From: Sneathiella chungangensis
GTDB lineage: Bacteria; Pseudomonadota; Alphaproteobacteria; Sneathiellales; Sneathiellaceae
Length of the DNA: 64,000 nucleotides
Reading direction: 5' to 3'
NCBI RefSeq assembly: GCF_009882935.1
Contig: NZ_WTVA01000015.1
Location: 753,108-817,107, forward strand
Numbering within the stretch: position 1 is the first letter of the stretch; the number at the start of each line of letters is the position of its first letter. Of the stretch, positions 8,483 through 30,234 are shown in pieces. The position numbers and the translations under genes are program-made. A model generated the notes under the pieces. The model did not search any database. It was not told where the DNA came from and saw only the letters and a list, made by a program, of their open reading frames with translations.

Positions 8483-9115
8483 GTGTTTACACTTCAAAAG
8501 ATCAAGTCCGCAGCCACCCGGACAATCTTGATTTCACTGGCACTGTTTGTTTCTGCATGTGCCGCGAAAAACGAGGCGGCAACGCTTGCACCGGCATCGC
8601 TCTCACAGGCGCCCCAGTATGTTATCGGCCCGCAGGACGAGCTTGATGTTTTCGTATGGCAGAACCCGGATCTTTCGGTCACTGTCCCGGTGCGCCCCGA
8701 CGGCCGAATTTCAACGCCACTGGTTGATGACATGATGGCCGCGTCGAAAACGTCGCAGGTCCTTGCACGTGATATCGAGAAAGTCCTGTCCAAATATGTC
8801 AAGGATCCGCTCGTAACCGTAACGGTCAAGACCTTCAACGGTCCCTATGACCAGCAGATCCGCATTGTCGGCCAGGCCGCAGAGCCGAAGGCAATTCCGT
8901 ACCGCAACGAAATGACGGTTCTTGATGCGATTATCGCCGTTGGCGGTATGACAGAATTCGCGGCCGGTAACCGCGCCGTTATTGTCCGCAATGAAGGCGG
9001 CGAAAAGAAGTCCTACAATGTCCGTCTTGACGACCTGATCATCGATGGCGACGTGTCGGCCAATGTTCCGCTGCTTCCGGGCGATATCCTGATCATTCCG
9101 CAAAGCTGGTTCTAG
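8483..9115 (+). CDS. Wza-type polysaccharide export lipoprotein, XrtA-locus type
   Basis: Outer-membrane auxiliary export protein of 210 residues that should form or gate the channel for the polymer. It has a lipoprotein signal with lipobox FVSAC (Cys26), a polysaccharide-export domain from about 46 (YVIGPQDELDVFVWQNPDL, then VPVRPDGRISTPLV), and an SLBB-like beta-grasp domain from about 125 (IRIVGQAAEPKAIPY, LDAIIAVGGMTEFAAGNRAVI). It is short compared with E. coli Wza, as expected for the family found in exosortase loci. The start is GTG at 8483, fixed by a strong AAGGGGGAGG seven bases upstream. The outer-membrane barrel gene follows 66 bp later in the same direction. Confidence 0.93.
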   Translation: MFTLQKIKSAATRTILISLALFVSACAAKNEAATLAPASLSQAPQYVIGPQDELDVFVWQNPDLSVTVPVRPDGRISTPLVDDMMAASKTSQVLARDIEKVLSKYVKDPLVTVTVKTFNGPYDQQIRIVGQAAEPKAIPYRNEMTVLDAIIAVGGMTEFAAGNRAVIVRNEGGEKKSYNVRLDDLIIDGDVSANVPLLPGDILIIPQSWF

Positions 9116-9124
9116 GAGGAGTTG

Positions 9125-9141
9125 CGGCAAGCGGATTGCCG
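9125..9141 (+). other. Small hairpin between the export lipoprotein and barrel genes
   Basis: CGGCAA (9125-9130) and TTGCCG (9136-9141) form a 6-bp stem around a 5-nt loop, ten bases after the stop codon. There is no T run, so it is unlikely to be an intrinsic terminator. It may protect the upstream message or adjust expression of the downstream gene. Confidence 0.4.
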
Positions 9142-9181
9142 TGCGTACTGAGGGTGGAATCAATTAGAAGGTAGTCGCATT

Positions 9182-10648
9182 GTGCTAAATGCAAACCAGC
9201 TCGTTTTCAGAAGGAAGAAGTCACGGACTTCTCTGGCAATCGGATGTGCCGTTGCCGGAGGAGTTCTGGCAATGTCCGGAAACGCCCTTGCCGCGGAATG
9301 GATGTTCAATCCATATATCGGCGTGGACGAAATTTACACAGACAACGCCTTCGGAGATGCCAGCGACCGGAAAGACGATTTTATTACGCGTCTGAACACT
9401 GGCTTTGAAGTGACAGGCGTCGGTCGACGCCTGCAACTGACTGCCGCGTATGATCTCGGGTACGATATCTATTCGCGGTATTCGGAACTGAACGGGTTCA
9501 ACCACAATCTGCTGGCCTCCAGCAAGGTGGAATTTGTCTCCGAGCATCTGTTCCTGGACACGGACATCGCCCTGACGGAAGAGCGGTATTCCAGCGACGG
9601 ATCAACCGCTTTTTCCGACCGGACCACGTCGGGCGACAGCACGCGGGTTCTCAATACCCGCATCAGCCCCTACTATCAGCATGATTTCGGTGGCTACGCC
9701 ACGGGGATTGCGCGCTATACCTACAGCATGGTCGACTTCACCGATACGAATTCGGACATCGCATCAACGGAACCGTCGGATACCCGCACCAATCGGGTTG
9801 ACCTCAGCCTGCTGAGCGGCCGGGAATTTTCCAGGACGAAATGGGCGGCAGAGGCGTTTGCCTATGACAACCAGGTGAAAAACGGCGACGATCTCAAGCG
9901 GGCAACGTTCAAGGGCTCCGGCCAGATGCCGATCAACCGCTATGTCGCGCTGCTCGCCTCGGCGGGTTGGGATGAGTTCGACGGTGAGAATATCGACAAC
10001 AGCGCGATCAGCGGCGAGTTCTACAGCGGGGGCGTGCGCCTCACCCCGGGACCGCGGACCGATTTCAGCATTCAGGTCGGTCACCGTTTCGGCGGCGGCA
10101 TTGTTGACGCAGACCTGACATACCTGATTTCCAGCGAAGCAAGTTTCTTCGCGGGCTATCATGTCGACGTCGCGGGTTCCGGCTCCGCCTTCGCCAATAC
10201 GAGCAATCTGGACGAAAATGGCCGCCTCGTGAACCCGAACTATTTTTCGGGCGGTTATGCTGATGGCATTACAAAAACCAAGGCCTTTTCCATGGGTCTG
10301 GCCGGCGAGAAGGGAAGAAACATCTATTCCGCGTCGGCCAGCTATGTCATGCGCCGGTTCCTCGACGATGGCACGGATGAGGATGTCGTCTCCTTTGACG
10401 GCAGCTATACGCGGCAACTGTCAAGAAGGCTTGAATGGTCGCTGATGGGCGGCTATTCGGAAGTTATTGATTCCCAGGTTACCGGTGGCAGGGAACAGAC
10501 CTTCTACGGCGAGACCGGCATCCGTTATCAGTTTACCCCGACCCTTATTGGCGGGGTGGCCTATGGCCATTATAACAGCGATGCCGAAACCAGTTCTGAC
10601 AGCTTTCGGGAAAATACGATTTCAGTAACGCTCAGAAAAGAATTTTAA
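9182..10648 (+). CDS. Outer-membrane beta-barrel protein, exosortase/PEP-CTERM locus family
   Basis: 488 residues with a signal peptide (basic start, hydrophobic core AIGCAVAGGVLAMSG, cleavage near ALAA, about residue 38). The rest alternates short amphipathic strands with Asn/Asp/Ser-rich turns and ends in a strand closing with Phe (ISVTLRKEF), the usual outer-membrane barrel signature. It fits the barrel family described next to Wza-like genes in XrtA polysaccharide loci, which probably completes the outer-membrane exit port. The start is GTG at 9182 with AGAAGG upstream. It is second in a two-gene unit with the export lipoprotein and convergent with the ATPase gene downstream. Confidence 0.88.
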   Translation: MLNANQLVFRRKKSRTSLAIGCAVAGGVLAMSGNALAAEWMFNPYIGVDEIYTDNAFGDASDRKDDFITRLNTGFEVTGVGRRLQLTAAYDLGYDIYSRYSELNGFNHNLLASSKVEFVSEHLFLDTDIALTEERYSSDGSTAFSDRTTSGDSTRVLNTRISPYYQHDFGGYATGIARYTYSMVDFTDTNSDIASTEPSDTRTNRVDLSLLSGREFSRTKWAAEAFAYDNQVKNGDDLKRATFKGSGQMPINRYVALLASAGWDEFDGENIDNSAISGEFYSGGVRLTPGPRTDFSIQVGHRFGGGIVDADLTYLISSEASFFAGYHVDVAGSGSAFANTSNLDENGRLVNPNYFSGGYADGITKTKAFSMGLAGEKGRNIYSASASYVMRRFLDDGTDEDVVSFDGSYTRQLSRRLEWSLMGGYSEVIDSQVTGGREQTFYGETGIRYQFTPTLIGGVAYGHYNSDAETSSDSFRENTISVTLRKEF

Positions 10649-10654
10649 CCGCCT

Positions 10655-10716
10655 ACGCAGCGCCCGGACGATCCTGTCGGACTTTTCCCGAACCGGAGTT
10701 CCGGGCGTTTCTGCGT
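10655..10716. terminator. Probable shared terminator between convergent genes
   Basis: The whole 68-bp gap between the barrel gene and the convergent ATPase gene folds on itself: ACGCAG CGCCCGGA (10655-10668) pairs with TCCGGGCG (10700-10707) and CTGCGT (10711-10716), with a three-base bulge. T runs are weak, so it could act as a double-sided transcription barrier rather than a strong intrinsic terminator. Confidence 0.55.
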
Positions 10717-11667
10717 CTAGCCGTGTGACCGCAGCTTCTTGAAGATAAGCTTGGCAAGTTCCTTGTCATGAATGACGAGGGCGGGTTGCTCCTCCTCCGC
10801 CTCTTCCTTCGTCTGCACGGGAAGGCGGCGGGTTTCCTCAACCCCTTTGGGCGCGCCGACATCGAAAATGCCGTGCGTGCGCTTGTCCCGGATCACTTCA
10901 TCAACGATGGTGCCGTCGATTTCCGGCGCCATGCGCGCAAAGCCGTAAACCAGGCAGGTATCGCAAAGAATATTGATAATGCGGGGGATGCCGCGGCTCG
11001 CTTCAAACAGCTTTTCGCACGCCTCCATCGTGAACAGCGGCAAATCCCGACCGGCGATGTGAAGCCGGTGCTTGATATAGGCGTCGATATCCTCGGCGGT
11101 CAGCGGCGCCAGGTGAAAATCAGAGGCAATTCGCTGGGCGAACTGGACCAGCTCCGGCGCCTGCAGGAGCCCTTTCAGCTGCGGCTGGCCGACCAGAATT
11201 AATTGCAGAAGCTGGTCATTGTCGGCATTGATATTCGACAACAGCCGCAACTGCTCCAGCAATTTCGGGCCGAGATTCTGGGCTTCGTCGACAATCAGGA
11301 TCGTCCGGCGGCCTTCCGCATATTCACGGATCAGAAACTGCTGCAACTCGTCATGCAGCCCGACGTGGGACTTGCCTTCATAGGGCTGGCCAAAGGCCAT
11401 GAGAACCCATTGCAGCAGATCCCCGTCCTGGATGTTGGAAACCAGGCCAACGGTGAATTCCTCGTCCAGCCGGTCGAGAAGATGGCGGATAAGCGTAGTC
11501 TTGCCGCAGCCGATTTCGCCGGTAACGACGGTAAATCCGGCGCGGTTCATGACGCCATATTCCAGCATTGAATAGGCGAGCGAATGGCTGTGGCCCCAAT
11601 ACAGGTAATGGGGATCGGGGAGAATAGAAAATGGCTTCTGCGTCAGTCCGTAAAATTCTCTATACAT
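10717..11667 (-). CDS. XrtA/PEP-CTERM system-associated ATPase (ExeA/GspA-like AAA)
   Basis: A 316-residue cytoplasmic AAA ATPase starting MYREFYGLTQKPFSILPDP, the hallmark of the ExeA-like family found in exosortase polysaccharide loci. Walker A is GEIGCGKTT (50-58), Walker B is ILIVDEAQ (Asp127/Glu128), and a sensor-type GQPQL and an arginine-containing GIPRIINILCD stretch follow. The C-terminal 60 residues are charged and without known fold. Its exact role is not established; it is thought to energise or regulate assembly of the export machinery. It is encoded 58 bp downstream of prsT on the same strand and probably co-transcribed. Confidence 0.92.
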   Translation of the reverse strand: MYREFYGLTQKPFSILPDPHYLYWGHSHSLAYSMLEYGVMNRAGFTVVTGEIGCGKTTLIRHLLDRLDEEFTVGLVSNIQDGDLLQWVLMAFGQPYEGKSHVGLHDELQQFLIREYAEGRRTILIVDEAQNLGPKLLEQLRLLSNINADNDQLLQLILVGQPQLKGLLQAPELVQFAQRIASDFHLAPLTAEDIDAYIKHRLHIAGRDLPLFTMEACEKLFEASRGIPRIINILCDTCLVYGFARMAPEIDGTIVDEVIRDKRTHGIFDVGAPKGVEETRRLPVQTKEEAEEEQPALVIHDKELAKLIFKKLRSHG

Positions 11668-17481: not shown

Positions 17482-19350
17482 ATGCGCACGCGATATCTGA
17501 TAATTTTGCTCGCTTTATTCGGTATGACAGCAACGTCCCCGGCCTTTGCCAAGGATCTTTTCGTCGATTACGAAAATGGCAAGGATGAAAATGACGGCCT
17601 CACCCGGGAAACCCCCTGGAAGCATGCGCCGGGAGACCCGAATGCCGGCGGCAATGTGAGCCGGTATGATCTGGAGCCCGGCGATACCATCTATTTCAAG
17701 GGCGGCGTTGAGTATCTGGGCGGCATTACCTTTTCCGCCGGAGGGTCCCAATCAAACCCCGTAACCTACAAGGGAAACGGATGGGGCGAGGCGCAGGCGA
17801 TCATCAGCGGCGCGAAAAAACTGGCCGTCGATTTCAAGCCCTGCCAGTCGGCGGAGGATTGTTACGGCAATTCGAACTGGGAGAAGCTTTATAAAACCCG
17901 CATCGACGGGGAGGTCAATCCGCTGACGCCGATGTTTCTGTCCGGCAAACGGATATGGCTGTCCCGCGAACCCAACCAGCCCGACCCCTTCTGGTTCGAC
18001 GATTATGAACATTATGAATCCGTTGGCGGATGGGGCACGGAAATGACCGAAAGCTCGCTCATTCTCGGGTCCGACCTCGACGACACCTCCGATGAAAACT
18101 GGCGCAACGCCATTATTGCGCTCTGGATGAAACCGAACCAGGTCGTGCTCACGGACGTGACGGGGATTGATCGGGCGAGCGGGACCATCAATTTCGATCC
18201 GCCGGGCAATGAACCCTACACCGACCGGGACTCCTATTATGCGCTGTTCAACCGCCCGTCCGACATCGACCAGGTGGGCGAATATTTTGTCGATAATGAC
18301 ACCGGGGTGATCCTCCTCTGGCCGGAAAGCGCCGACGCGGCAACGAGCAATGATCTCAGCGTCAATGACCTTCCGGCGGCATTTGCGCTGAATGGGAACA
18401 GCAACATCGTCATCGAAGGATTTCATATCAGCCGTTATTTCGGCGATCATGACGGATGGCAGAGCGGAACCGCCGTTATCAACGGGAAAAGCCCGGTCCG
18501 CAATATCATCGTTCGCGATAACACTATCGACCATCTCCGGTCGGTGGAAGGCGTTGGCGCCATCCAGCTTGATAATTCGGCCGATTCCGTCATCAGCAAC
18601 AATGTCATTGCCAACTCTCAGAAAAGCTCGGGCATCCGGTTTAACGAGGCGCGCAATATCATCGTGCGGGATAATGTCATTGACCGGATCGGGCGCACCG
18701 GGATTCGCCTGATCAATACCGAGAACATGCAAATCTCGGGCAATCAGCTGTCCAATATTTACGGCATTCACGGAAACGGCATGTCCGTGTACCTGGAGAA
18801 CCGGAATATCCTCATCGCCGATAACATTCTGCGAAACGTGCCCTTCGCCTTTACCTATCACGGAACCGACGATGTCGACGAAGCCAACAATATGTGGCTG
18901 CTCAACAATGTGATTCTTGGTCCGGTGCGCAGCTGGGGAAGCCAGTTCGACAAAGTTACCTATCTCCACAATCTGATCTTCGCCGAAGATGAAGTGGGCA
19001 AGGCCGTGCAAATTTCCGGTTATGAGCCGCGGACGACCTTCAAGAACAATATTATTGACGGGATGATCGTGAAGCCGCCGGCGACGGACTGGACGATGTC
19101 GCACAATATCTATACGGCCCTGGCCTGGACGCAATCGCCGAAATACGGCTGGAGTATGGAACCCGAAAGCGACCTCGATGACGGGTTCGTTGACGATATT
19201 GAGAATTTCTCGAAAAAGCGGCCGGAGCTCGATATGCCGATTGGCGACAATATTTATGGATTGCTGCCGGTCCAGCTTTTCCCGCAGTATGATTTCAGCC
19301 GATGGAAGGAGGCAAAGCCCATCGGCCCGAGCTATACCGCCAAGCCCTAG
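17482..19350 (+). CDS. Secreted right-handed parallel beta-helix protein (possible polysaccharide lyase or epimerase)
   Basis: 622 residues with a clean signal peptide (MRTRYLIILLALFGMT to about Ala23 in SPAFAK). From about residue 300 it is a ladder of Asn/Ile/Val-rich repeats such as NIIVRDNTIDHL, NVIANSQKSSGIRF and NIIVRDNVIDRIGRTGI, the pattern of NosD/pectate-lyase-like parallel beta-helices. Such folds in exopolysaccharide loci are usually lyases, hydrolases or C5-epimerases acting on the polymer, but I see no motif that picks one. The N-terminal portion (FVDYENGKDENDGLTRETPW) is common at the front of this family. The start is ATG with GGAGGG nearby. The gene lies between GT2 and the asparagine-synthetase-like gene in the same direction. 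Confidence 0.88.
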   Translation: MRTRYLIILLALFGMTATSPAFAKDLFVDYENGKDENDGLTRETPWKHAPGDPNAGGNVSRYDLEPGDTIYFKGGVEYLGGITFSAGGSQSNPVTYKGNGWGEAQAIISGAKKLAVDFKPCQSAEDCYGNSNWEKLYKTRIDGEVNPLTPMFLSGKRIWLSREPNQPDPFWFDDYEHYESVGGWGTEMTESSLILGSDLDDTSDENWRNAIIALWMKPNQVVLTDVTGIDRASGTINFDPPGNEPYTDRDSYYALFNRPSDIDQVGEYFVDNDTGVILLWPESADAATSNDLSVNDLPAAFALNGNSNIVIEGFHISRYFGDHDGWQSGTAVINGKSPVRNIIVRDNTIDHLRSVEGVGAIQLDNSADSVISNNVIANSQKSSGIRFNEARNIIVRDNVIDRIGRTGIRLINTENMQISGNQLSNIYGIHGNGMSVYLENRNILIADNILRNVPFAFTYHGTDDVDEANNMWLLNNVILGPVRSWGSQFDKVTYLHNLIFAEDEVGKAVQISGYEPRTTFKNNIIDGMIVKPPATDWTMSHNIYTALAWTQSPKYGWSMEPESDLDDGFVDDIENFSKKRPELDMPIGDNIYGLLPVQLFPQYDFSRWKEAKPIGPSYTAKP

Positions 19351-19516
19351 GCAGGGCCGGCTGGCCTTTCCCTGAAACCAGGGTCGCCGGAAGATATGGC
19401 AACCCGGGAATGGCCGGCAACGTCGCGGTCGACAATCCGACGGCGTTGTAATAATAAAAGATTTATTGTTTACGGGTAATCATTCCTTCCCGCTGCAAAA
19501 TATTGAAGGAAACAGA

Positions 19517-20968
19517 GTGTACAAACAGTTCATCTGTGCGCGTACCAAGCTATCGCCGCCCGACGGCTTCCGGTCGAAGACCTATTTGGACTGGACTATC
19601 TGGGTCTCTCCCGGTTTACCTGTTTCCGAAATCCGCGATGGGGATGGCCGGGTTTTAGGGCTCCTGCTTGGCTGGTTCATCAAGGACGATGAATTTATCA
19701 GCAGTGACTCGGCAATTGAGATCGCGGCGGCGCCCTCGCGGAGCCGTAATCCCTTCAACTCCCTGTGCGGCCGGTTCGTCGTATTCTGTGAATATGATGG
19801 AAATCCATCGCTGTTGACCGATGCCGGCGCCCTGTTTCCGGTCGTGTATGACAAGTCGCGGGAAATCATCGCCTCCTCCTCCTGCATGATACCGGAGGTG
19901 ACCGCCGAGAACCGGGATCCGGCAACGATCGCCGATCTCGATCTCTTGACGGAGCGCGGCTGGTATCCCTTCGGCCTGACCGCCCATGCCGGAATAAGGC
20001 GGCTGCTTCCCAATCGCGCCCTCAATCTTGCCTCGTTCGACGCCACGCGAACCTGGCCCCTGGAAGACGAGGACGACTTTCGCAAGCATCACGGGGAAAG
20101 CGATGAAACGCTGTTGCAGAGATTATGCGAAAGCCTGAGCGGAAGAGTAAAAACCGTCACGGCGGCACAGCCGACAATCATGCATCTGACCGGCGGATGG
20201 GATACGCGCATGATGCTCTCCGCCGCCCGGGAAAGCATCCGCGATATCGATTTCAGAACCTACCGGACGGGCGGAAGCGGCGGCAAGCTGGACCAGCAGC
20301 TCGCCAGACTACTCTCGGACAGGTTCAAACTGAAACATGAATTCGTCGATTTGCTGCCCGTGTCGGAGGCGGAGCGGCGCGACTGGATGTGGCGCACGGG
20401 ATATTGCCTGAACGATCATGTTATCGGATTATCGACAACCGAATGCGGTGTCGCGCAAGCGGGCGAGGTTACGCTTGCCGGCGCCGCGGGCGAGGTTGCC
20501 CGCGCGTTCTACTGGAACTCCGATGATATCGGCAAGAGCCCGCCAACGCCGGAAATCTTATTGCAGAGGCTTGGATTTAAAAATACGGAAATCCTGAACG
20601 ACGAGGCAAGGCGATGGCTGGAGGGACTTCCGAAAGGAAGCGCCTGCTGGGTGTACGACCTCGCCTATATCGAATTGCGCCTGGGCTGCTGGGCGGGAGT
20701 CGCCATGACCGGCCATGATATTCCCCTGCCGTCTATTTCGCCCTTCAACAGCGTCGATACATTTCAGACAATGATGTCTTTTTCCGACCGCTATCGCGCC
20801 GACGGCGGCCTGTGCAAGGATATCGCGAAACGTCTTTGGCCGGAGCTTCTGTCCATTCCGATCAACCGGGCGGCGGGACTTAGAAAACTGCTTTTCGTTC
20901 GGCAGGAACTGTCGGCGACGATGCCGCCGGGCCTGAAGGAAATGCTTAAAAAATACCTGCGGCGATAG
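19517..20968 (+). CDS. Asparagine-synthetase-like protein with degenerate glutaminase half
   Basis: 483 residues from the GTG at 19517, which has GAAGGA six bases upstream; an in-frame TTG at 19466 lacks a good site. The first 125 residues resemble the Ntn glutaminase fold (GRFVVFCEYDG, DAGALFPVVYD), but no Cys follows the start, so the nucleophile of true glutamine amidotransferases is missing. The second half resembles the ATP-pyrophosphatase domain of asparagine synthetase, with LTGGWDTRM (about 224-232) where the family has SGGxDS. Relatives include beta-lactam synthetase and lasso-peptide cyclases, which adenylate a carboxylate and form an amide, and amidotransferases of O-antigen loci. 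A role in amidating or aminoacylating a uronic-acid sugar is a reasonable guess, unproven. Confidence 0.75.
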   Translation: MYKQFICARTKLSPPDGFRSKTYLDWTIWVSPGLPVSEIRDGDGRVLGLLLGWFIKDDEFISSDSAIEIAAAPSRSRNPFNSLCGRFVVFCEYDGNPSLLTDAGALFPVVYDKSREIIASSSCMIPEVTAENRDPATIADLDLLTERGWYPFGLTAHAGIRRLLPNRALNLASFDATRTWPLEDEDDFRKHHGESDETLLQRLCESLSGRVKTVTAAQPTIMHLTGGWDTRMMLSAARESIRDIDFRTYRTGGSGGKLDQQLARLLSDRFKLKHEFVDLLPVSEAERRDWMWRTGYCLNDHVIGLSTTECGVAQAGEVTLAGAAGEVARAFYWNSDDIGKSPPTPEILLQRLGFKNTEILNDEARRWLEGLPKGSACWVYDLAYIELRLGCWAGVAMTGHDIPLPSISPFNSVDTFQTMMSFSDRYRADGGLCKDIAKRLWPELLSIPINRAAGLRKLLFVRQELSATMPPGLKEMLKKYLRR

Positions 20969-20995: not shown

Positions 20996-21904
20996 TCACG
21001 CGCGCGTCCAGTGTTTGTTGGGATCTATATGGTCCTGCCCGCTGGCGAGAAACCCGAGCATAATCCGCGCACGGAAAAGGCGGCACCAGAACAACACGAC
21101 AATCGCCTTCAGCTTATCGGACATCCGGACAAGCCTTTTGTTCTTGAGCGCCTTGATACTATGGGGTACCGCCGAGGCGGCGGTCGCGAAACACAGCGCG
21201 AGCCACCGCGCGTTGAACCCCGGCTTCTGTTTCAGGACATTGAAGGTCATGGCGGATTGCCGTTTCCATTTTGCCCTGAGTTCGTCGAATGTCGCCCGCG
21301 CCGGATGCTTTACGATGCAATCGCCGCCATAGTGAAATGTTGCGCCGGCCGCAAAGGCCCGGTGACACCAGTCCGTATCTTCGGCGACATCGGATCGAAA
21401 CGGACCGACTTCGCGGAAAAGCGCGAGGCTTGTCCAGAGGTTCCCCGTCGCCGCTTCATTCTTCTTCGCGTAATTTTCCTGGTTCGTTGAATAGACGATA
21501 TCGAAGGCCTCGACGCTGTTTGGCCGTTCGTGCCGGGGATACATGACGATCTCTCCCGCCATCACGCTCCGTTCGCCTTGTTCTTTCATCCGCCGAAGGC
21601 CGTTTTTCACGAAATCCGGATCGATCAGGCAGTCGCAGTCGGTAAAGGCAAGAAACCGGCCCTGTGCGATCTCAACGCCCGCATTGCGCGCCGGCCCGGC
21701 CCCGCGTTTCGTTTCGACCACCAGACGCGCGTTCAGGTTATACTTTTCCAGCCCCTCAACCGGTTGGCGGGAATTGTTGTCGCAGACGATCACTTCAAAC
21801 TCGGCCTTGTCGCAGCTTTGCGCATCCAGCGACGCAAGACACGCCGCCAGACCGGCGGGGTCGTTGAAATGCGGGATAACGATGCTCAACTCGAAACGTT
21901 CCAC
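20996..21904 (-). CDS. Glycosyltransferase family 2
   Basis: A 302-residue GT2. N-terminal LSIVIPHFNDPAGL, VIVCDNNSRQ (38-47), the acceptor loop KRGAGPARNAGVEIAQG and the metal site TDCD (88-91) are clear. A second block, GNLWTSLALFREVGPF with EDTDWCHRA, is typical of the glycosyltransferases that use this fold in polymer loci. The start is a GTG without an obvious ribosome site, so the true start is uncertain by a few codons. It is the last gene of the unit FrhB-like - polymerase - GT2 and is convergent with the asparagine-synthetase-like gene, 27 bp away. Confidence 0.88.
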   Translation of the reverse strand: MERFELSIVIPHFNDPAGLAACLASLDAQSCDKAEFEVIVCDNNSRQPVEGLEKYNLNARLVVETKRGAGPARNAGVEIAQGRFLAFTDCDCLIDPDFVKNGLRRMKEQGERSVMAGEIVMYPRHERPNSVEAFDIVYSTNQENYAKKNEAATGNLWTSLALFREVGPFRSDVAEDTDWCHRAFAAGATFHYGGDCIVKHPARATFDELRAKWKRQSAMTFNVLKQKPGFNARWLALCFATAASAVPHSIKALKNKRLVRMSDKLKAIVVLFWCRLFRARIMLGFLASGQDHIDPNKHWTRA

Positions 21905-22011: not shown

Positions 22012-23373
22012 TTATGATTTTGAAAGACCTGGTGGGTTGGAAACCGCCCCGGCCTGCTCTTGCGGTATCGGTCTCGGCGCCGTTCCGGGCCGCGCCTTTA
22101 CCGGCACCTCGTTCCAGGCAACGCCTGCGCTGGTCAGCATCCCGAGGAGTATGTTGGTCAACAGCAGCGGCGGCCCAAACAGTCCCACCGACATGCTGGA
22201 GACGTCCACCGCGATAAGCGCGCTTGTCAGGTAAAATATGAGTTTCCGGCGATACGGATCCATCGACTTTTTCCGCGCCTTTATCCCGTAGCGGACCGCA
22301 TTCACATGCGAGAACACATACATCAGGAGTGCCGGAATCCCGCCCTGAACGGCAACAACCACAAAATGGTTCACCAGGTCGATATGCTGCCGCCCGTCGA
22401 GCAGCCCGCCCCAATAGTTGATGTCCGTGCCGCCGGTCCCGACGAGCCAGTAATCGCGCCACTGCGCCACCGCGACCTCAAGAAGCTTGGTTCGATACCA
22501 GGCATTACCCGAGCTCAGCGCCAGATAGTCGATCAGGTGATAGAAATGCCGGTTGGACGCAAGCTCAAGGAATATCGCCAGCGCCACCAAACTATAAAGA
22601 GTCGGCTTGATCATGCTCGGGCGAAGAACATACAGATTGCAGATGATCAGCGTGATAATCGCAAGCCAGGGTCCGCTTGACATCGAGGACAGGCCGGCCC
22701 CGATGGCCAGGATGATCGTAATTGTGCACATCTTCTTCTTGCGCGGATTGCTGCGCAGGGCCCAGGCAATACCGGCAATCAGCATCATCGCCATGCCGAA
22801 AAAGATATGCACGGACGTACTGACCTTCGCCCGCATGATGCCAAGGCGGAATTCGGGCGCCTTGGGAATCCAGGACCAGGTCTTGTAGGCATCAAGGCCG
22901 GTATAGGGTGACGACGTCATAATGCCTTCCTGCCAGCCCATCACAAGCATCACGGCGGAAATGGCAAACAACGGAAAGACCATTGATCCGACATCCTGCA
23001 TGGAGCGAATGCCCAGCCGGGCAACGAAATACATCAGGACCGTATCGAAACCATAGCCGATCATCTCGGTGGTTTTGTCGAACCCTGCGCCGCCCAGAAA
23101 TGTCGAAAGGACGTACCACAGCCACAGAAAGAAGACGAGATAATCGACGGAACAGATATTTATCCGGATATTCCGGCCCTGGGCGACGAAGCGAACAAGC
23201 AGCGCCAGCGCGATAAGACGCGGCGCGGACATGTCCGCCGGTCCCAGCGGCACCCGGAGATATTCCGGCCAGATCAGCATGGAAAAGACGAGAATGCCGA
23301 CGGCCGCGCCGGGGCGCACCCAAAGGGCCATTATCCCAAAAAATACGGTTACAAATGCGGTTACGCCAACCAT
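22012..23373 (-). CDS. O-antigen ligase/polymerase family membrane protein (Wzy-like)
   Basis: 453 residues with about ten to twelve hydrophobic segments. A large periplasmic loop precedes the conserved pattern of the Wzy/WaaL family: LLEVAVAQWRDYWLVGTGG and HIDLVNHFVVVAVQGGIPALL, where an Arg and a His in this loop are usually essential. The likely role is block polymerisation of lipid-linked repeat units in the inner membrane after flipping. Its ATG overlaps the stop of the FrhB-like gene by one base (TAATG), pointing to coupled translation. Ligase and polymerase members cannot be separated by sequence; the polymerase reading follows from context. Confidence 0.87.
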   Translation of the reverse strand: MVGVTAFVTVFFGIMALWVRPGAAVGILVFSMLIWPEYLRVPLGPADMSAPRLIALALLVRFVAQGRNIRINICSVDYLVFFLWLWYVLSTFLGGAGFDKTTEMIGYGFDTVLMYFVARLGIRSMQDVGSMVFPLFAISAVMLVMGWQEGIMTSSPYTGLDAYKTWSWIPKAPEFRLGIMRAKVSTSVHIFFGMAMMLIAGIAWALRSNPRKKKMCTITIILAIGAGLSSMSSGPWLAIITLIICNLYVLRPSMIKPTLYSLVALAIFLELASNRHFYHLIDYLALSSGNAWYRTKLLEVAVAQWRDYWLVGTGGTDINYWGGLLDGRQHIDLVNHFVVVAVQGGIPALLMYVFSHVNAVRYGIKARKKSMDPYRRKLIFYLTSALIAVDVSSMSVGLFGPPLLLTNILLGMLTSAGVAWNEVPVKARPGTAPRPIPQEQAGAVSNPPGLSKS

Positions 23374-24656
23374 TAGCTCTTTTCCTTCGCCGGAGGCGTC
23401 CAGCTTTCAACCTCTATCTGTTTGTTGAGGCGCTTCCTGAAAATTCTGACGACCGTGCCGGTAATTGACTGCACTTTCTCGTAATTCGTCAGATTTGTCC
23501 ACCAGAACCGCGCCATGCGGAACCCGGTATATTTGGGAACGGCGGCGCCAAAAAGGCGGAGAAGATGAAGCCGCGCCCAGACATTTCCTCTCGTGCCGAG
23601 CAGGTTCGGCTGCGATCTTGGAAACAGCGAGGCGTCATGATTTTCAAGCGTGATATATCCCGCCTTTGCCGCCTCGAGAATAAAGTCGCGTCCCTTGCCG
23701 GTTCTGGCAACGATCAGCGACTTTCCCGTTTCCCCCTCTTCAATGTCACGATACCACGGATCGCCAACGGCGATATCGGCGAATTCTCCGGTATGGTCCG
23801 GGCAGATATAACAGCGCCATTGCCGGTATTTCTGCAAGAACCCCCAGGAGTCCGCATAGGTCATTTCCACCGACTTTTCCGCGCCGTCGTGATCGGTATA
23901 TATCGCCGTCCACATCCCCGGCCATCCGTTTCCGCGATACCGCAGGTTTTTGAGCCGTGACGGATCCTCGACGCCCGCCTTCTTCAGCAAGTCCAGCGTG
24001 CCTTTGGTCGACGGCGTGCCGGCGCAAAAGAAAGCAATGGTCACGCCGATCTTCCTGTCGAGTTCCGGGTCAATCAGTCGCGCCTTTTGAACGGCGGCAA
24101 CGTCGCAGGGCTTGCCGACGAAGGCGGCCGGAGCACTTTCTTTGACGACACGGTCCAGACCGTCGCAGGGGCTGGCCGGCGCATAGCGCGATCCTGTCGC
24201 CGCGGCCAGCTGCTCACGGCTTTTGCTCATCACCGTTTCATTGAGGTAGGGATAGTCCTTGCGGGCATTCGTGTGCAGCACGCCGGAGAATCCCTGTTGC
24301 TCGATCGCAAAGGTGGAAAGCGCCGTCGCCGCGCCGCCGCTTGACCCGCTGCCGCGAATTTCAGGATCGGACGCATATCCTTCCCAAACGTCGAGCACCG
24401 GCCCCCAGGCCGCCGCCATGTCTTTTTTCAGATGCGGCGTATCAAGGCTGTAGTCGTGTTTCAAATTGACGCCGGGGCAGGATTTCAGCGCCGCCCCCGT
24501 TTCATCGGCCGGATTTTCGCGGAGGAAAGGCCGCCGTCCGAGGTCCAGGGACTCCGCCATTTTGAACCGATCAGGCTCCATGAAGGCGCAAACACCGCAT
24601 CCCGTGCAAAGTTGATTGCGGACAACGTCCGTTATTCCCTTGATACGGTTACTCAC
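23373..24656 (-). CDS. FrhB-like iron-sulfur flavoprotein family (F420 hydrogenase/dehydrogenase beta subunit type)
   Basis: 427 residues starting GTG at 24656. The N-terminus has CTGCGVC (Cys17, Cys20, Cys23) with a fourth Cys in SCPG (Cys60), a 4Fe-4S ferredoxin-like site. The middle and C-terminal parts follow the FrhB N- and C-terminal domains (GSGSSGGAATAL, GKPCDVAAVQKARL, FFCAGTPSTKGT, RWRCYICPDHTGEFADIAVGDPWY). In bacteria without F420, members occur in surface-polysaccharide loci next to pyruvyl transferases and their reaction is not established. Here it starts a unit with the polymerase and a GT2, and a pyruvyl transferase lies two genes upstream on the same strand. A redox step on a sugar or on the ketal substituent is conceivable. 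Confidence 0.85.
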   Translation of the reverse strand: MSNRIKGITDVVRNQLCTGCGVCAFMEPDRFKMAESLDLGRRPFLRENPADETGAALKSCPGVNLKHDYSLDTPHLKKDMAAAWGPVLDVWEGYASDPEIRGSGSSGGAATALSTFAIEQQGFSGVLHTNARKDYPYLNETVMSKSREQLAAATGSRYAPASPCDGLDRVVKESAPAAFVGKPCDVAAVQKARLIDPELDRKIGVTIAFFCAGTPSTKGTLDLLKKAGVEDPSRLKNLRYRGNGWPGMWTAIYTDHDGAEKSVEMTYADSWGFLQKYRQWRCYICPDHTGEFADIAVGDPWYRDIEEGETGKSLIVARTGKGRDFILEAAKAGYITLENHDASLFPRSQPNLLGTRGNVWARLHLLRLFGAAVPKYTGFRMARFWWTNLTNYEKVQSITGTVVRIFRKRLNKQIEVESWTPPAKEKS

Positions 24657-24943: not shown

Positions 24944-26395
24944 TTACTGTTCAATGCTGCCCGAAGTCGCCTGCGGCGTCTTGCCATGTTCCTTGACCCA
25001 GGCAATCAGGTCGGCGGCAAACAGCAACAAAACGGCCAGCGCCACCAGAGAGAAGGCCACCGCGCCGGAAATCTCCAGAACCGGGCTCAGTCCCGTCACC
25101 AGGTACAGCGACAAGATCATGGCCGCCGCCATCAGGGCGATAGAAATAATCATCGTCCCGTATAGAGAGGCAAGATGCAATCCCGTCACTTTCCGGATCA
25201 GGAAAATGAAGAAGACAGCGGCCAGGAATTCGCCGAAAACACCGCTCAGGACAATGCCGATCACGCCCCAGTCATTCCAGACCGAGAACAACGCCAGGGG
25301 CAGCGCGGTACTTCTGAGCATATTCGAATAGAGCGGCAGTTTCGTCTTTCCGCAGGCGACGGCAACCGTTGTCGGTCCCGCCTTGATCATCCGAATGCCC
25401 TGCATCAGGGCAAGCCAGGGGATGATATAGGCCCCGCCCAGGTATTTTTCGCCGAAAAGCACCACCGACAGGGACGGGCCGCCAAGGGCCAGCCCGACGG
25501 CCATTAATGTTCCGAGAATAAAGAACGCCTTGGTTGACGCCACGGCGCTTTTCCCAAGCAGTTCCGGATCCGTCTGGGTTTTGGCAATCATCGGCGTCAT
25601 GAGATTTTGCGCCGCACTCATCAGAACAATTGCCGGAAACAGCGTCAGCGTGAATGCCGCGCTGAACCAGCCCAGATTCTCCATATCATAGGCGATCCCG
25701 ACAATGCCGCGATCGGCCTGGAAAATGCCGAACATCAGTAATCCGTTCAGCATCAGGGGCCAGCCGAAGGTAAATATGCGGTGCAGATATTCCTTGTCCA
25801 TCGCCAGCTTGAACTTTCGCTCCGCCAGCAGAAAGGACAGCAGGACGGTGGTTACCGCCTGAATGGTAATGATCCAGAGCATCACCCGGTAGTCGCCGAA
25901 ATAAAGCGCAAGAGGCGCGGAGACCGCCAGCGTAATAACCTGCGGCACACTGCCGATGATGGCGAGGGGGCCAAACCGCATGGCCCGCTGAAACCGGGCG
26001 GAATCCATATGGACAAATCCGGTGATAAGGGGCAGCACGGCAAGCCACTGAAACGCCCAGACGACTTCCGGTAATTTGAACAGATGGGCAACCGGGCTGG
26101 CCACTGCATAGAGGACTATGGCGAGAAAAATTCCGCGCAGGATGTTAAACGCTTGCGCCGTCGCCTGCAGCTTGGGTTCATTGCCATCAACCGCCTGGAT
26201 AATCAGCCTGTCGACACCAAGGCCCGTCGCCATTTGTATCAACGCCATGGTGATGCCGAAGGTCGCGGCGATACCGTAGTCTTCGACGCTGATCAAACGG
26301 GTGATGATGATGTTGCGCGCAAAAGTGCAAATTGCGCCTATCGCGCTGCCTGATGAAAGAAGTAGCCCGCTTTTTATGAAGCCATGTAGACGCAA
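24944..26395 (-). CDS. Oligosaccharide flippase (Wzx, MATE-like superfamily)
   Basis: 483 residues with about fourteen hydrophobic helices and the Wzx-type N-terminus (GLLLSSGSAIGAICTFARNIIITRLISVEDYG). It should move the undecaprenyl-linked repeat unit across the inner membrane. The start is a TTG at 26395, one base after the stop of the pyruvyl transferase gene, which is unusual but fits tight coupling; no better start was found nearby. The gene follows the pyruvyl transferase directly, so decoration before flipping is plausible. Confidence 0.88.
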   Translation of the reverse strand: MRLHGFIKSGLLLSSGSAIGAICTFARNIIITRLISVEDYGIAATFGITMALIQMATGLGVDRLIIQAVDGNEPKLQATAQAFNILRGIFLAIVLYAVASPVAHLFKLPEVVWAFQWLAVLPLITGFVHMDSARFQRAMRFGPLAIIGSVPQVITLAVSAPLALYFGDYRVMLWIITIQAVTTVLLSFLLAERKFKLAMDKEYLHRIFTFGWPLMLNGLLMFGIFQADRGIVGIAYDMENLGWFSAAFTLTLFPAIVLMSAAQNLMTPMIAKTQTDPELLGKSAVASTKAFFILGTLMAVGLALGGPSLSVVLFGEKYLGGAYIIPWLALMQGIRMIKAGPTTVAVACGKTKLPLYSNMLRSTALPLALFSVWNDWGVIGIVLSGVFGEFLAAVFFIFLIRKVTGLHLASLYGTMIISIALMAAAMILSLYLVTGLSPVLEISGAVAFSLVALAVLLLFAADLIAWVKEHGKTPQATSGSIEQ

Positions 26396-26396
26396 T

Positions 26397-27737
26397 CTAG
26401 TTACTTTCTCTATTTTCAGGGCTGCGGGCGCTGGATAGATTTTTTATCGTATTCGCAATAATGGAGAGTTGGCTGTTGGTCCGCTCCTTGATTTCCGGGA
26501 GCGCTTTTTCAAGGGATTGCCTGATTTCCTTCCACCTCAGGAAAGACCCCTTCATGCCGTCGATAACCTCTTGCGTGTCCTGCTCGCGGGGATCGAAAAC
26601 CTCGCCGCCCTGACCGCAGGTGTCAAAAACGCCGCGGGTCTTGTCGCTGTAGGCGATGGCGGCCGCCGGAATGCCCTGCGACAGCGCCGCAATCGTCGAA
26701 TGCATTCTCGTGCCGCAAAACCAGTCCATCTTCGAGATCAGCCATTTGACCTGGTTCTGATCAAGGGTATCGGGCGAAACGAAGACGCGGCCCTGATATT
26801 TGTCTTCGAGGGTTTTCGCGACTTTCTCGCAGGCCGCATAGTCCGACTCCGTATATTGCCGTCCGCTCATCACATGCGGGATAAGGACAAGCCGCGCGCC
26901 CGTCTCCTCGAGCAGCCAGTTACAGAACCCGAGGATGATCTGCCCGTAATCCGCCTTGAAGTGATATCGGGAATAGGCGGCATCGGGATCATTATAGATC
27001 AGGCCGCTGACATTCAGGCCAACGAGGGGCGAATTCGTATCTGTTTCGGAAATCGTCTGCAGGAGCGCCGGATCGATCAGCTCCTCGGCGTTTCTGGCGC
27101 CAAGGGCGAAGGCAATATCCACCCCGCTTCTGTGCCGGTCCGCGTCGAATTCCTCGCCCAGCATGTTTTGCAGGATCTTGAAGCTGTTCGGGTCGCGGGC
27201 CCAGGCCATATCCGCGCCCTTCACCGCCTTGACCGCAATATCGTTGAATTTCGGATCGTAATAGGGGCCATAGGTTTGCGGCAGCAGGATCAGCGGGACA
27301 TGCCGCTTGAGCGTGATCAATTTGGGCCGGACGACACTCATGAAACGTTTGACGCCATAGATATCGCTGAAGCTGTCGCCGCCGGAGACATCAAGAACCA
27401 CATCGAACTGGTCAATATCGTGAATCACCGAATTCAGCAGGCCGCCAAGGGCGCCAAGATGCGAGGCGACGGAAATGGCAATGATATTTTCCTGCAGGTA
27501 ATAGCGGTGGCCGGCGCGAATGCCGATATGGTCGATATCGATCGTGTTGCCTTGCGAGAAATGATGGGTTTTCGTCCTTTTTCCAAGCTCGTTATCGAAG
27601 ACGGAAAAACGGGCATTCGGCAACAGCCGGGTAATGCCTTCGACGGTTGATGCGAAGAGAGCCGAGACGCCCATATTATAGGTGTCGGGAGCGGCGCCGA
27701 ACAACCCGATCTTGATTACAGATTCTTTTTCAGACAT
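26397..27737 (-). CDS. Polysaccharide pyruvyl transferase family protein
   Basis: 446 residues of the CsaB/WcaK-type pyruvyl transferase family, which adds pyruvate ketals to sugars using phosphoenolpyruvate. Recognisable features are IGLFGAAPDTYNMGVSAL at the N-terminus, DVVLDVSGGDSFSDIYG, the LLPQTYGPYYD region, LIPHVMSG and the C-terminal MDWFCGTRMHSTIAALSQG. The ATG has AGGAAA close upstream. It follows the exosortase gene by 40 bp and precedes the flippase by one base. Pyruvylation would give the polymer extra negative charge. The related FrhB-like gene lies two genes downstream. Confidence 0.9.
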   Translation of the reverse strand: MSEKESVIKIGLFGAAPDTYNMGVSALFASTVEGITRLLPNARFSVFDNELGKRTKTHHFSQGNTIDIDHIGIRAGHRYYLQENIIAISVASHLGALGGLLNSVIHDIDQFDVVLDVSGGDSFSDIYGVKRFMSVVRPKLITLKRHVPLILLPQTYGPYYDPKFNDIAVKAVKGADMAWARDPNSFKILQNMLGEEFDADRHRSGVDIAFALGARNAEELIDPALLQTISETDTNSPLVGLNVSGLIYNDPDAAYSRYHFKADYGQIILGFCNWLLEETGARLVLIPHVMSGRQYTESDYAACEKVAKTLEDKYQGRVFVSPDTLDQNQVKWLISKMDWFCGTRMHSTIAALSQGIPAAAIAYSDKTRGVFDTCGQGGEVFDPREQDTQEVIDGMKGSFLRWKEIRQSLEKALPEIKERTNSQLSIIANTIKNLSSARSPENRESN

Positions 27738-27777: not shown

Positions 27778-29319
27778 CTAGTCCGGCACATAGGCCGGGA
27801 GAACCTTGAACAATTCCTGGGCGAAACCGGTAAGCTCCCGGTCCGCCAGAACCTCCGACATCGTCGTTTCGATCGGCATGGTGAGACGGATGAGTGCGCC
27901 GTCGGTCCGCGCCGATGACAAACCGCCCCACAACAGATTGAACTTCGCAATATACTCGTTTGCAATATATTTTCCGCGTTGCTTGAACCAGTAATAGACA
28001 AGCAGCCTGTCCTCGCCATGGGTCACCAGCACGCGGTTGACCGGAACCTGCCGTTCTCCGTCCGTTATCGTGATTTCGGAAAGGTCCTCGATCTTCCAAC
28101 CGCCGGACGGGATGCAGACCCGCGGTGAATGCGGGGTGCTGCCGGCCGATTGTTGCTCGTAGTACCCAATGAATAACGTAACGGGCGGAACATTTCCGTC
28201 GCGGTAATGACCAAGAAAATAATCGCTCATATTGAGGATCGTCTGTTCGACCCCGGGCAGCACATCCTCCTCGGCGATCATATCGTTGATCTTGAGCGGG
28301 AAACTGTTGAACGCCCGCCGCTCCGGAATTTCCGGCGGAATGTTGCGCAGCGCCAAAATCGACGGGACAAGGACAATGCAGAGCAGCATCGCACCGATCA
28401 CGGGGCCCAGCCGCAACGGCTTTTCCTCGCGCTGCTCTTCCGGGACGGATACCTTGAGAACACCGCCGCCAATCGTCGCCTTCTCGCGTTTCGTCAGCGT
28501 CAGATAACAGATCGCCAGCATCACCGCGAAGGAAAACAGGAAAAACACCCAGCCTTCGAACAGATGGAAGAACCCGTCGGAGACGGCCGTGTCCGTCCAT
28601 TCGGCAAACGCGCCGGTGAGAAATATCCGCACGCTGTTCATAATGACCGAAACGACGGCGGCGAGCAGGACGAAGAGCCCCCGCTTCCACAGCGGCATGT
28701 CGAACAGCATCGCCAGCAGGACGCCAAGGCCGATCATCGGGTAAAGATAGCGCAGGCCCGCACAGGCCTCGACAACCGCGAGCTTGATGGTTCCCATGTC
28801 GATGATGTTGCCGTCCTGAAACACCGACAGCCCGGCGAAGCGCAGCAGGCCGACGCTCATATCCGTCGAGAGCAGTTGCAGGCCATAGGTCAGATTGGCG
28901 TTCAGAAATGCCGGGGGCGGCACGACGAAGGGAAGCAGGACGAGGGAGGGGAGGACATAACGGCCGTAGGTCACACCGCCGAAAACGACGAAAAGCCCAA
29001 GGATCATCAGCAGCAGGCTGATATGGCGGACATTGATGATCCCCGCCTTGATGGCCAGCGCATAGGCCGCCGCGGCAAGGATGCAGAAAACGAGCCCGGC
29101 CCAGTTGCCGCGCCTGTCATGGGACTGCAGCAGCGGCCGCCGAGCCCAGAGAAGATACAGCGCGACGACAAGCATGAGGGGTCCATGGCTGAACTCCTCG
29201 ACATTCATCCAGTCATGCCACAGCAGCAGGCCGTCGGGAATATAGATTAGCAGAACCAGGCACAGAAGGGCTGGCAGCAACAGTCGGGTGCGGTCAATCC
29301 TTTGTAATGCCAGTTCCAT
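27778..29319 (-). CDS. xrtA: Exosortase (XrtA/EpsH type) fused to a C-terminal EpsI domain
   Basis: 513 residues. The N-terminal 275 form an eight-helix exosortase with the conserved EEFSHGPL (His45), catalytic Cys186 in VVEACAGLRYL, Arg231 in MNSVRIF and FFHLFEGW (His252). A linker of about 40 residues is followed by one more helix and a periplasmic EpsI domain (about 310-513) with SPRVCIPSGGWKIED and VTHGEDRLLVYYWF. Exosortases are transpeptidases that recognise PEP-CTERM-like C-terminal signals and, with EpsI, support exopolysaccharide production. Assignment to the XrtA subtype rests on the neighbouring PrsT, associated ATPase, barrel and BY-kinase; another alphaproteobacterial exosortase subtype with fused EpsI is possible. 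It is in one transcript with the Wzz-like protein and the kinase. Confidence 0.9.
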   Translation of the reverse strand: MELALQRIDRTRLLLPALLCLVLLIYIPDGLLLWHDWMNVEEFSHGPLMLVVALYLLWARRPLLQSHDRRGNWAGLVFCILAAAAYALAIKAGIINVRHISLLLMILGLFVVFGGVTYGRYVLPSLVLLPFVVPPPAFLNANLTYGLQLLSTDMSVGLLRFAGLSVFQDGNIIDMGTIKLAVVEACAGLRYLYPMIGLGVLLAMLFDMPLWKRGLFVLLAAVVSVIMNSVRIFLTGAFAEWTDTAVSDGFFHLFEGWVFFLFSFAVMLAICYLTLTKREKATIGGGVLKVSVPEEQREEKPLRLGPVIGAMLLCIVLVPSILALRNIPPEIPERRAFNSFPLKINDMIAEEDVLPGVEQTILNMSDYFLGHYRDGNVPPVTLFIGYYEQQSAGSTPHSPRVCIPSGGWKIEDLSEITITDGERQVPVNRVLVTHGEDRLLVYYWFKQRGKYIANEYIAKFNLLWGGLSSARTDGALIRLTMPIETTMSEVLADRELTGFAQELFKVLPAYVPD

Positions 29320-29406: not shown

Positions 29407-30222
29407 CTAGTAATAGTATGTTTTGGCGACTTCCGTTGATTTGTTCAGAACAACACCCAAGAGGTTACTCGATTGCAGCTGCCGGCGGCAGTCCTTGACT
29501 TCGCTGGGCTTTGTTTCGCCGCTGGCCACGACCATCAGGACGCAATCGACCTGGGGCAGGAAGGCGATGGCGTCGTCCGTTGATTTCAGGGGTGGCAAAT
29601 CGAAAATGCAGATGCGCTTCTCATAGCGGTCGCGCAAATCCGCCACGACGGACTTCACCTTGCGTGACGTCAGGATTTCCGTGGAGTTCTTGACAGGCCG
29701 GCGGTTCGGCAGCACGACGAAGCGCGGAATGCCGGGATTGACCAGCGTATCGTTGAATTCGATCTTGCCATCGAGATAGTCGGCGAAGCTGATATCCTTC
29801 GGCAGCCCGAGATAGGCGGCAACCTGTGGGCGGCGCAGGTCGAAATCGACAAGCAGGGCCGTATAGTCGGTTTGCTTCGCGATACTGAGCGCGAGGTTGA
29901 TGGCGACCACCGTCTTGCCGCAGGCCGGCGTCGGCGAGGTAATGGCGAGGGTCCGCCAGTTGTTCGCCTCCATCTTGGCCAGGACCTGCGTGCGCAGGAT
30001 ATCGAAACTGATCGAATTGGGATCTTCATTATCGATCGTGATGATCCGGTTTTCTTCCAGATGCCCAAGGTCGAGATCGACGACACGGGTCTGGTTATAG
30101 ACAATCGGTCCGTCAATGACATCCGCGCCCTTAACGGCCTTTCGCGCCGCACCGGGGGCATCGGTCAAACCGCCAGTCTTGCTTTCTCTGGCCTTCGCGA
30201 TTGCTTCTTTAATTCGTTCCAC
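29407..30222 (-). CDS. Bacterial tyrosine autokinase (CpsD/CapB-like, XrtA-locus type)
   Basis: 271 residues with the P-loop tyrosine kinase layout: Walker A SPTPACGKT (96-104), Walker A' VDFDLRRPQ (Asp126, Asp128), a Walker B-like IFDLPPL, and a C-terminal tyrosine cluster ending KTYYY. It works with the adjacent Wzz-like protein, whose cytoplasmic tail activates it; cycles of autophosphorylation set polymerisation and export. The tail has only three tyrosines. The N-terminal 60 residues are the linker typical of the stand-alone kinases of exosortase loci. It begins 12 bp after the Wzz-like gene and precedes the exosortase. Confidence 0.92.
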   Translation of the reverse strand: MERIKEAIAKARESKTGGLTDAPGAARKAVKGADVIDGPIVYNQTRVVDLDLGHLEENRIITIDNEDPNSISFDILRTQVLAKMEANNWRTLAITSPTPACGKTVVAINLALSIAKQTDYTALLVDFDLRRPQVAAYLGLPKDISFADYLDGKIEFNDTLVNPGIPRFVVLPNRRPVKNSTEILTSRKVKSVVADLRDRYEKRICIFDLPPLKSTDDAIAFLPQVDCVLMVVASGETKPSEVKDCRRQLQSSNLLGVVLNKSTEVAKTYYY

Positions 30223-30234
30223 GTGAACCCCCTA

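Follow-up and report, generated by a model that had tools for sequence, protein, structure and literature searches.

A cysteine-less family of asparagine-synthetase-like proteins, a candidate for amide formation on bacterial polysaccharides

The gene at positions 19517–20968 of the window, the 64,000-nucleotide stretch of Sneathiella chungangensis DNA analyzed here, encodes a member of an uncatalogued family of Cys-less proteins related to asparagine synthetase (AsnB) that is found in both bacteria and archaea. The reading we favor, with a confidence that falls just short of even, is that this protein would be an amide synthetase that uses ATP to couple an amine, one not supplied by a glutaminase of its own, to a uronic acid of the polymer made by the surrounding exopolysaccharide locus. 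Uronic acids joined through amides to amino acids or amines are common in bacterial polysaccharides, yet to our knowledge few enzymes have been established for making them; the Cys-less family is a candidate for this role. In addition, nearly isosyntenic loci of one genus that differ in the kind of amide-forming enzyme they contain amount to a natural experiment.

The gene is an intact plus-strand reading frame of 483 codons, running from a GTG start at 19517 to a stop at 20968, with a Shine-Dalgarno-like stretch (AAGGAAA) just 5′ of the start. The first-pass annotation had noted that no cysteine follows the initiator methionine, and this holds for both readings of the frame: the GTG start gives MYKQFICAR, and the longest reading, from a TTG at 19466, gives MFTGNHSFPLQ... 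An upstream start that would place a cysteine at position 2 is excluded, as no start in this frame gives one. The same is true of the family, which we aligned in 59 rows: the window protein plus 58 members, out of 67 such open reading frames in loci L037–L094 (nine short or weak frames, the plasmid relatives and some other genomes were set aside; here and below, L numbers are homologue loci and G numbers genomes, G000 being the window's own). With the starts of the other 58 rows assigned mechanically, none of the 59 begins with Met-Cys and two have a cysteine in columns 3–6; the residues at window positions 4 and 5 are well kept, Q in 52 rows and F in 49. The GC content of the gene (0.58; GC3 0.70) is similar to that of neighboring genes and thus gives no sign of recent import.

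Searches with the window protein alone returned no family from Pfam or NCBIfam and only chance matches among PDB sequences, so the fold was examined through the family alignment. The resulting AlphaFold2 model is confident (mean pLDDT 93.4) and predicts the full AsnB/beta-lactam-synthetase fold, with an Ntn and an ATP-pyrophosphatase domain. The top four solved structures, carbapenam synthetase (Z 22.0, rmsd 4.4, 391 residues aligned), beta-lactam synthetase (Z 21.8, rmsd 4.2, 369 aligned), E. coli AsnB (Z 21.4, rmsd 4.1, 365 aligned) and TsnB9 (Z 20.8, rmsd 4.0, 401 aligned), are tied within 1.2 Z units and span about residues 2–451; human ASNS matches at Z 18 and single-domain ATP-pyrophosphatases at about 11. 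Likewise, hhalign against a three-row AsnB profile gives a probability of 97.7 (E 1.5e-12), and the family profile finds beta-lactam synthetase (E 4.2e-4) as the sole AsnB-class PDB sequence at E < 0.001. The Cys-less AsnB/beta-lactam-synthetase architecture proposed at first pass is supported by these comparisons. A particular likeness to lasso-peptide cyclases, proposed at the same time, is not: NF033561, the model for lasso/albusnodin-type macrolactam cyclases, is touched by 7 of the 59 members at E ≤ 0.1 (best 9.1e-8), and the window protein has no match to it; nor did a RiPP precursor or leader peptidase catch the eye among the annotated neighbors. Some other members reach the models of the canonical enzymes (PF00733 in 4/59 at E ≤ 0.01, TIGR01536 in 9/59 at E ≤ 0.1). 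Held against the features of a canonical class II glutamine amidotransferase, the window protein lacks Cys2 and matches none of TIGR01536, TIGR03108 and PF00733. A stray PADLOC match of one member to typeIV_Cas6 was disregarded.

Beta-lactam and carbapenam synthetases, the closest solved folds, share both domains with the window protein, and their Ntn domain also lacks the cysteine. However, the window protein is only 11–13% identical to them in the fold alignments and has no conserved lysine at the aligned place, and its gene lies in an exopolysaccharide locus (Wza, Wzx, Wzy-like, Wzz-like, sugar transferase, XrtD) and not in a beta-lactam cluster. With E. coli AsnB, both domains and the ATP loop can be aligned. 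The features of the gene are as follows:

19517..20968, plus strand: probable Cys-less AsnB/beta-lactam-synthetase-like amide synthetase (open reading frame, model, fold matches, hhalign to AsnB)
20186..20209, plus strand: ATP-pyrophosphatase loop LTGGWDTR, residues 224–231 (paired by hhalign with AsnB SGGLDSS)
20480..20494, plus strand: G322–E326, a second probable Mg/ATP site (paired by hhalign with AsnB SGEGSDE)
20858..20866, plus strand: P448-I-N450, opposite AsnB R-x-K (hhalign pairing extended ungapped by hand)

The ATP loop had been read as LTGGWDTR in the first-pass annotation, as it is here, and the protein had been labeled degenerate, a label that has to be given up. The signature LT[AG]Gx[DE][ST]R is itself conserved across the 59 rows (T/S225, G227, [DE]229 and R231 in 58 each, [ST]230 in all), so that the SGGxDS motif of the superfamily is present as a conservative variant. 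Outside the loop, R162, R178, D/E381 and E386 are kept in every row, G322 in 58 and E/D326 in 49. With its family signature conserved and the ATP site kept, the protein is a regular member of its family and not a decayed AsnB, and the conservation of the loop, D381 and E386 (58–59 of 59) and of E/D326 argues for an active enzyme. The differences from AsnB are the absence of Cys2, the form of the loop (T/S-A/G-G-x-D/E-S/T-R) and the site, P-x-N in the family, opposite the R-x-K motif near the end of the AsnB synthetase domain, which we take to carry the catalytic lysine. The lysine position, 450 in the window protein, is N in 48 of 59 rows and K or R in one, and the chemistry may thus differ from that of AsnB. 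Position 451 is R or K in 40 of 59, and this shifted basic residue may do the work of the AsnB lysine, at a place where the fold alignments stop within a few residues of 450 and disagree in register.

The unconserved lysine position also bears on a different explanation, namely that the enzyme activates a carboxylate that is not part of a sugar, or forms a bond other than an amide, as might be imagined from LarE, QueC and the hydroxyamidotransferases of the wider superfamily. Weak matches of members to LarE (12/59) and QueC (5/59) at E ≤ 0.1 would fit this, as would the presence of TsnB9, a hydroxyamidotransferase, among the top folds. We nonetheless regard it as improbable: the two-domain AsnB/beta-lactam-synthetase matches score Z 18–22, against 11 for the single-domain ATP-pyrophosphatases, and the enzyme with which the window gene is exchanged in related genomes is an amidotransferase.

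The context of that exchange is the exopolysaccharide locus of the window, which in addition to a TPR protein, a deacetylase and glycosyltransferases contains the following:

4805..8145, minus strand: type I secretion-like HlyD and ABC transporter (Pfam)
8483..11667: Wza-type export protein (plus), BBP2-like porin (plus) and XrtA/PEP-CTERM ATPase-like AAA protein (minus; Pfam; TIGR03015 289.8 bits, under the cut-off of 324.5)
17482..19350, plus strand: right-handed beta-helix protein with a signal-peptide-like N-terminus as judged by eye (Pfam Beta_helix, E 5.6e-12)
20996..21904, minus strand: glycosyltransferase family 2 (GT2), the other border of the swapped slot (Pfam GT2, 9.4e-22)
22012..23373, minus strand: Wzy/O-antigen-ligase-like polymerase (Pfam Wzy_C, 1.6e-5; 25.2 bits, below the cut-off of 31.7)
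23373..24656, minus strand: FrhB/FdhB-like protein (Pfam PF04432, 2e-33)
24944..26395, minus strand: Wzx flippase (Pfam Polysacc_synt_3, 1.6e-41)
26397..27737, minus strand: polysaccharide pyruvyl transferase (Pfam, 9.3e-28)
27778..29319, minus strand: exosortase XrtD (VPLPA-CTERM type) fused to an EpsI domain (TIGR04152, 452.8 bits against a cut-off of 400; Pfam Exosortase_EpsH and DUF3485)
29407..31878, minus strand: ParA/BY-kinase-like and Wzz-like chain-length proteins (Pfam CbiA, 7.5e-6; Wzz/GNVR weak, below cut-off)
32192..33664, minus strand: initiating sugar transferase (Pfam Bac_transf, 3e-70)

The beta-helix gene ends 166 bases upstream of the Cys-less gene, and the beta-helix and glycosyltransferase neighbors that had been pointed out earlier are both confirmed by these matches. 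No uronate-making gene was recognized in the scanned part of the window, which counts against the reading we favor.

It is informative to examine the same slot in other members of the genus. The beta-helix gene was found in 7 of 24 genus genomes, five of which carry a canonical enzyme and two the Cys-less one. The latter, sought at E ≤ 0.001 in 60 genomes that included the 23 other genus genomes, occurs within the genus in G000 and G012 (2/24). When the canonical amidotransferase of G017 was used as query, 11 of the 24 genomes matched at E ≤ 1e-10, and the strong matches (at least 89% identity) are those in G002, G007, G017, G019 and G021, which are the other five beta-helix carriers. At these thresholds none of the 24 genomes has both enzymes. 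In G017, G002 and G021, whose loci were read directly, the slot between the beta-helix and GT2 genes holds a 630-amino-acid enzyme (MCGLAGF...) encoded on the minus strand, opposite to the plus-strand Cys-less gene that holds the slot in the window; in G007 and G019, match coordinates place the beta-helix and canonical genes 27 bases apart. The canonical enzyme has Cys2, the loop SGGLDSS and an R-x-K (RPKSNF), passes TIGR01536 and has TIGR03108 as its best NCBIfam match, below cut-off, whereas the window protein has no NCBIfam match; the two proteins are about 21% identical over 145–158 amino acids. A remnant of a canonical gene in the window slot was also considered and rejected, the only match being weak (20% over 280–293 amino acids, E 0.38–0.65) and taken as remote homology of the Cys-less gene itself.

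Around this slot the loci are similar. From the ABC transporter through the FrhB-like gene, the products of the window are 61–95% identical to those of the three congener loci (type I ABC 85–92%, Wza 91–93%, AAA 93–95%, TPR 73–75%, beta-helix 61%, GT2 71–72%, Wzy 75–76%, FrhB-like 74–76%). Wzx, the gene expected to track the repeat unit, is 46–50% identical in G017 and G021 over the 125–195 amino acids covered (it lies beyond the stretch available for G002), as if the exported repeat unit differed. These observations suggest that Cys-less and canonical enzymes have been swapped, putting different nitrogen groups on much the same polymer. Such a swap with a canonical amidotransferase points to amide chemistry on the polymer of this locus, and the polymer amide that had been suggested earlier gains support, as the likely product, from the five congeners. 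Less can be drawn from G012: the genome is only 70% complete, and its Cys-less gene occupies another place in the locus, next to type I secretion genes, so that its lack of a canonical gene is weak evidence. The beta-helix gene of G012 is cut by a contig end. G004 and G014 have a canonical enzyme that is 59–60% identical and shares a contig with a diverged Wzy. As a separate observation, the congener Wzy match in L149 (G007:C225) contains two in-frame stops in the assembly.

The exactness of the slot swap with a TIGR03108/WbpS-like enzyme and the 61–95% identity of the flanking genes are also what one would expect if the window enzyme made a plain uronamide (CONH2), like its canonical counterpart, and the loss of the cysteine changed only the source of nitrogen, to free ammonia or a separate glutaminase. 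AsnB-type synthetase domains do accept free ammonia, which counts for this explanation. Still, we think it unlikely. The absence of Met-Cys starts from all 59 members, together with near-invariant residues of their own from alphaproteobacteria to haloarchaea, makes the group look like an old, specialized family and not the outcome of a recent loss. Wzx, moreover, has diverged further than its neighbors. The position of AsnB Glu348, which we take to be the catalytic base, is variable in the Cys-less family; this is a weak point against a plain uronamide, since the canonical congener enzyme has Met there too.

Our preferred reading, an amide formed with another amine, can be outlined as follows. 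A carboxylate would be adenylated by the ATP-pyrophosphatase domain at the C-terminus. The most likely one is the carboxyl at C6 of a hexuronic or N-acetylhexosaminuronic acid, presented as a nucleotide sugar, a lipid-linked unit or the polymer, and an amine would then attack the acyl-adenylate to give the amide. The N-terminal Ntn fold would be retained as a scaffold that does not hydrolyze glutamine. As the glutamine-hydrolyzing cysteine is absent, the nitrogen would probably come from some other amine, such as an amino acid, an amino sugar or a small amine. Within the genus, the Cys-less enzyme would stand in for the canonical glutamine-dependent amidotransferase of the five congeners.

Known uronamide-forming enzymes are of the same superfamily and also belong to polysaccharide loci. 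Passages of one paper report that the linking sugar of Porphyromonas gingivalis loses its uronamide when PGN_1234 is deleted, that TIGR03108 is the top match of both asparagine synthases compared there, and that such genes lie beside exosortases (PMC7468200); WbpS is described, in passages of two others, as turning uronic acids into uronamides (PMC3684757, PMC6025236). A TIGR03108-like enzyme fills the slot in the congeners, and a uronic acid substrate is likely common to these enzymes and the window enzyme. Consistent with this, a G000 gene that most resembles UDP-ManNAcA dehydrogenase and Cap5O is located 33–34 kb upstream of the slot; in G017, G021 and G002, PF03721 matches occur at a similar distance from it. 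Genes that by eye have a housekeeping look intervene, and the link from dehydrogenase to slot is one that we infer; a carboxyl-bearing amino sugar is a reasonable candidate for the substrate.

A search of genome contigs, one genome per species, found no relatives with the single window protein as query; with a five-row alignment it found 58 loci. Judged by their record titles and tree labels, these belong to Proteobacteria, Thermodesulfobacteriota, Myxococcota, Verrucomicrobia, Planctomycetota, Chloroflexota, Actinomycetota, Bacteroidota and archaea. Plasmids and genomes of the class supplied more relatives, and a scan of viral contigs for the family found none. Searches of open-access literature showed no publication on the family among the results that they listed, which does not imply its absence from print. 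In the window genome itself there is no AsnB-type match, the three PF00733 matches resembling MnmA, GuaA and ArgG by eye.

The neighborhoods of the homologues were surveyed, as the first-pass annotation had proposed, and they are enriched in polysaccharide genes. One or more core polysaccharide genes lie within 10 kb in 43 of 68 homologue loci, compared with 3 of 40 controls (Fisher p 5e-9), and two or more in 31, compared with none of the controls (p 2e-8); seven loci supplied reference proteins and so count by construction, and without them the first figure is 36 of 61. As controls we took 40 stretches, each of 20 kb and placed at a round coordinate, from seven alphaproteobacterial genomes; they were not matched for phylum. 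The core count used 13 reference categories and left out BBP2, AAA22, deacetylase, FrhB, Xrt, BYkin, Wzm, Wzt, wecB, wecC, RmlA, RmlB, SGNH, FkbM, GtrA and two secretion categories; an alternative count by BLAST clusters gives 36 of 68. Pfam alone gives a more modest picture: its matches to nearest neighbors, upstream and downstream respectively, include GT2 (5 and 7), Wzy_C (5 and 5) and beta-helix (6/62 and 3/64; 9/126 together). Type I secretion as a conserved partner was rejected, ABC-transporter matches occurring within 10 kb in 9 of 68 loci against 10 of 40 controls; type I secretion genes do lie near the enzyme in L037, L071, L077 and L010.

The remaining 25 of the 68 loci lack any core polysaccharide gene over the length that was read (7 of them with less than 12.5 kb of flank), and a strict link between family and polysaccharide therefore does not hold; the earlier annotation had held that homologues without polysaccharide genes would speak against its reading, and such homologues do occur beside the majority that have these genes. 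These loci lend some weight to the explanation that the gene is not a polysaccharide enzyme at all but cargo within the locus, or catalytically dead. So does the finding that no Pfam family turns up more than twice among the 94 near neighbors scanned (108 listed) at 32 loci provisionally classed as non-EPS, and so does the patchy presence of the family, with 17 of 387 genomes of the class matching at E ≤ 1e-5 and five, the window's own included, at E ≤ 1e-20. Against it stand the enrichment itself, the near-invariant active-site residues, the beta-helix gene that adjoins the enzyme in 15 loci, and the nearest tree relatives of the window protein (L037 and L038, SH-aLRT 98), whose neighbors include Wza, type I secretion genes and a sugar transferase. 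We consider this explanation very improbable. In one locus of the 68, L065, which is outside the genus, an AsnB-type gene lies eight genes from the Cys-less one; their co-occurrence would agree with different products, but it means that the two kinds are not alternatives everywhere.

Beta-helix proteins of three families are found in 20 of the 68 loci, directly adjoining the enzyme in 15, and in none of the 40 controls, a count that leans high because the profiles were built from these same loci. The reverse comparison, from the beta-helix side, has little to say, as the families occur in 3, 0 and 4 of the 387 class genomes, too rare to inform. Two or three separate beta-helix families adjoin the enzyme by lineage (window 17482–19350, L071:11536–12447, L010:13197–15239), and for the smaller, L071-type family a search of PDB sequences gave nothing at E ≤ 0.1. 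For the window beta-helix protein, AlgE C5 epimerases are the first structure matches (Z 30.3, 293 aligned, rmsd 2.6). The best 50 entries all lie at Z 26.9–30.3 with tailspikes and inulin transferases among them, and with scores this crowded on a model of pLDDT 70.4 we claim no activity for it. A beta-helix enzyme that modifies an exopolysaccharide, WceF, is described in PMC7949094. A broader and more doubtful speculation is that the widespread Cys-less family attaches amines or amino acids to carboxyls of secreted polysaccharides, that the genus trades it with canonical uronamide synthases, and that the beta-helix partner recognizes the modified chain. If this were true, close relatives among the strains would share a largely similar polymer but differ in the amides on it.

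A few loci have features of their own. In the rhizobial locus L061 (17186–19988), a ligase passes TIGR03098 and a PLP decarboxylase passes TIGR03099, both "exosortase A system-associated"; the models were run on L061 only, and similar genes are recognized by sequence cluster in L009, L066, L068, L078, L085 and L087. The window exosortase has no BLAST match in these rhizobial loci. One guess is that an adenylating ligase paired with a decarboxylase would be suited to producing an amine donor. In four of the 25 loci that lack core polysaccharide genes (L045:9677–14496, L046:8447–12879, L062:8374–11419 and L067:9689–13145), the family gene is present in two or three tandem copies, among neighbors that look like housekeeping genes. 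In L038 (10233–10976), the protein after the Cys-less relative has, by eye, a VPLPA-like tail. Finally, in L012 (10756–13170), from an E. coli plasmid that also carries capsule genes, the domain is fused to an N-terminal part that by eye resembles an alpha/beta-hydrolase, and the fusion sits just 3′ of the genes for ManNAcA synthesis annotated as wecB and wecC.
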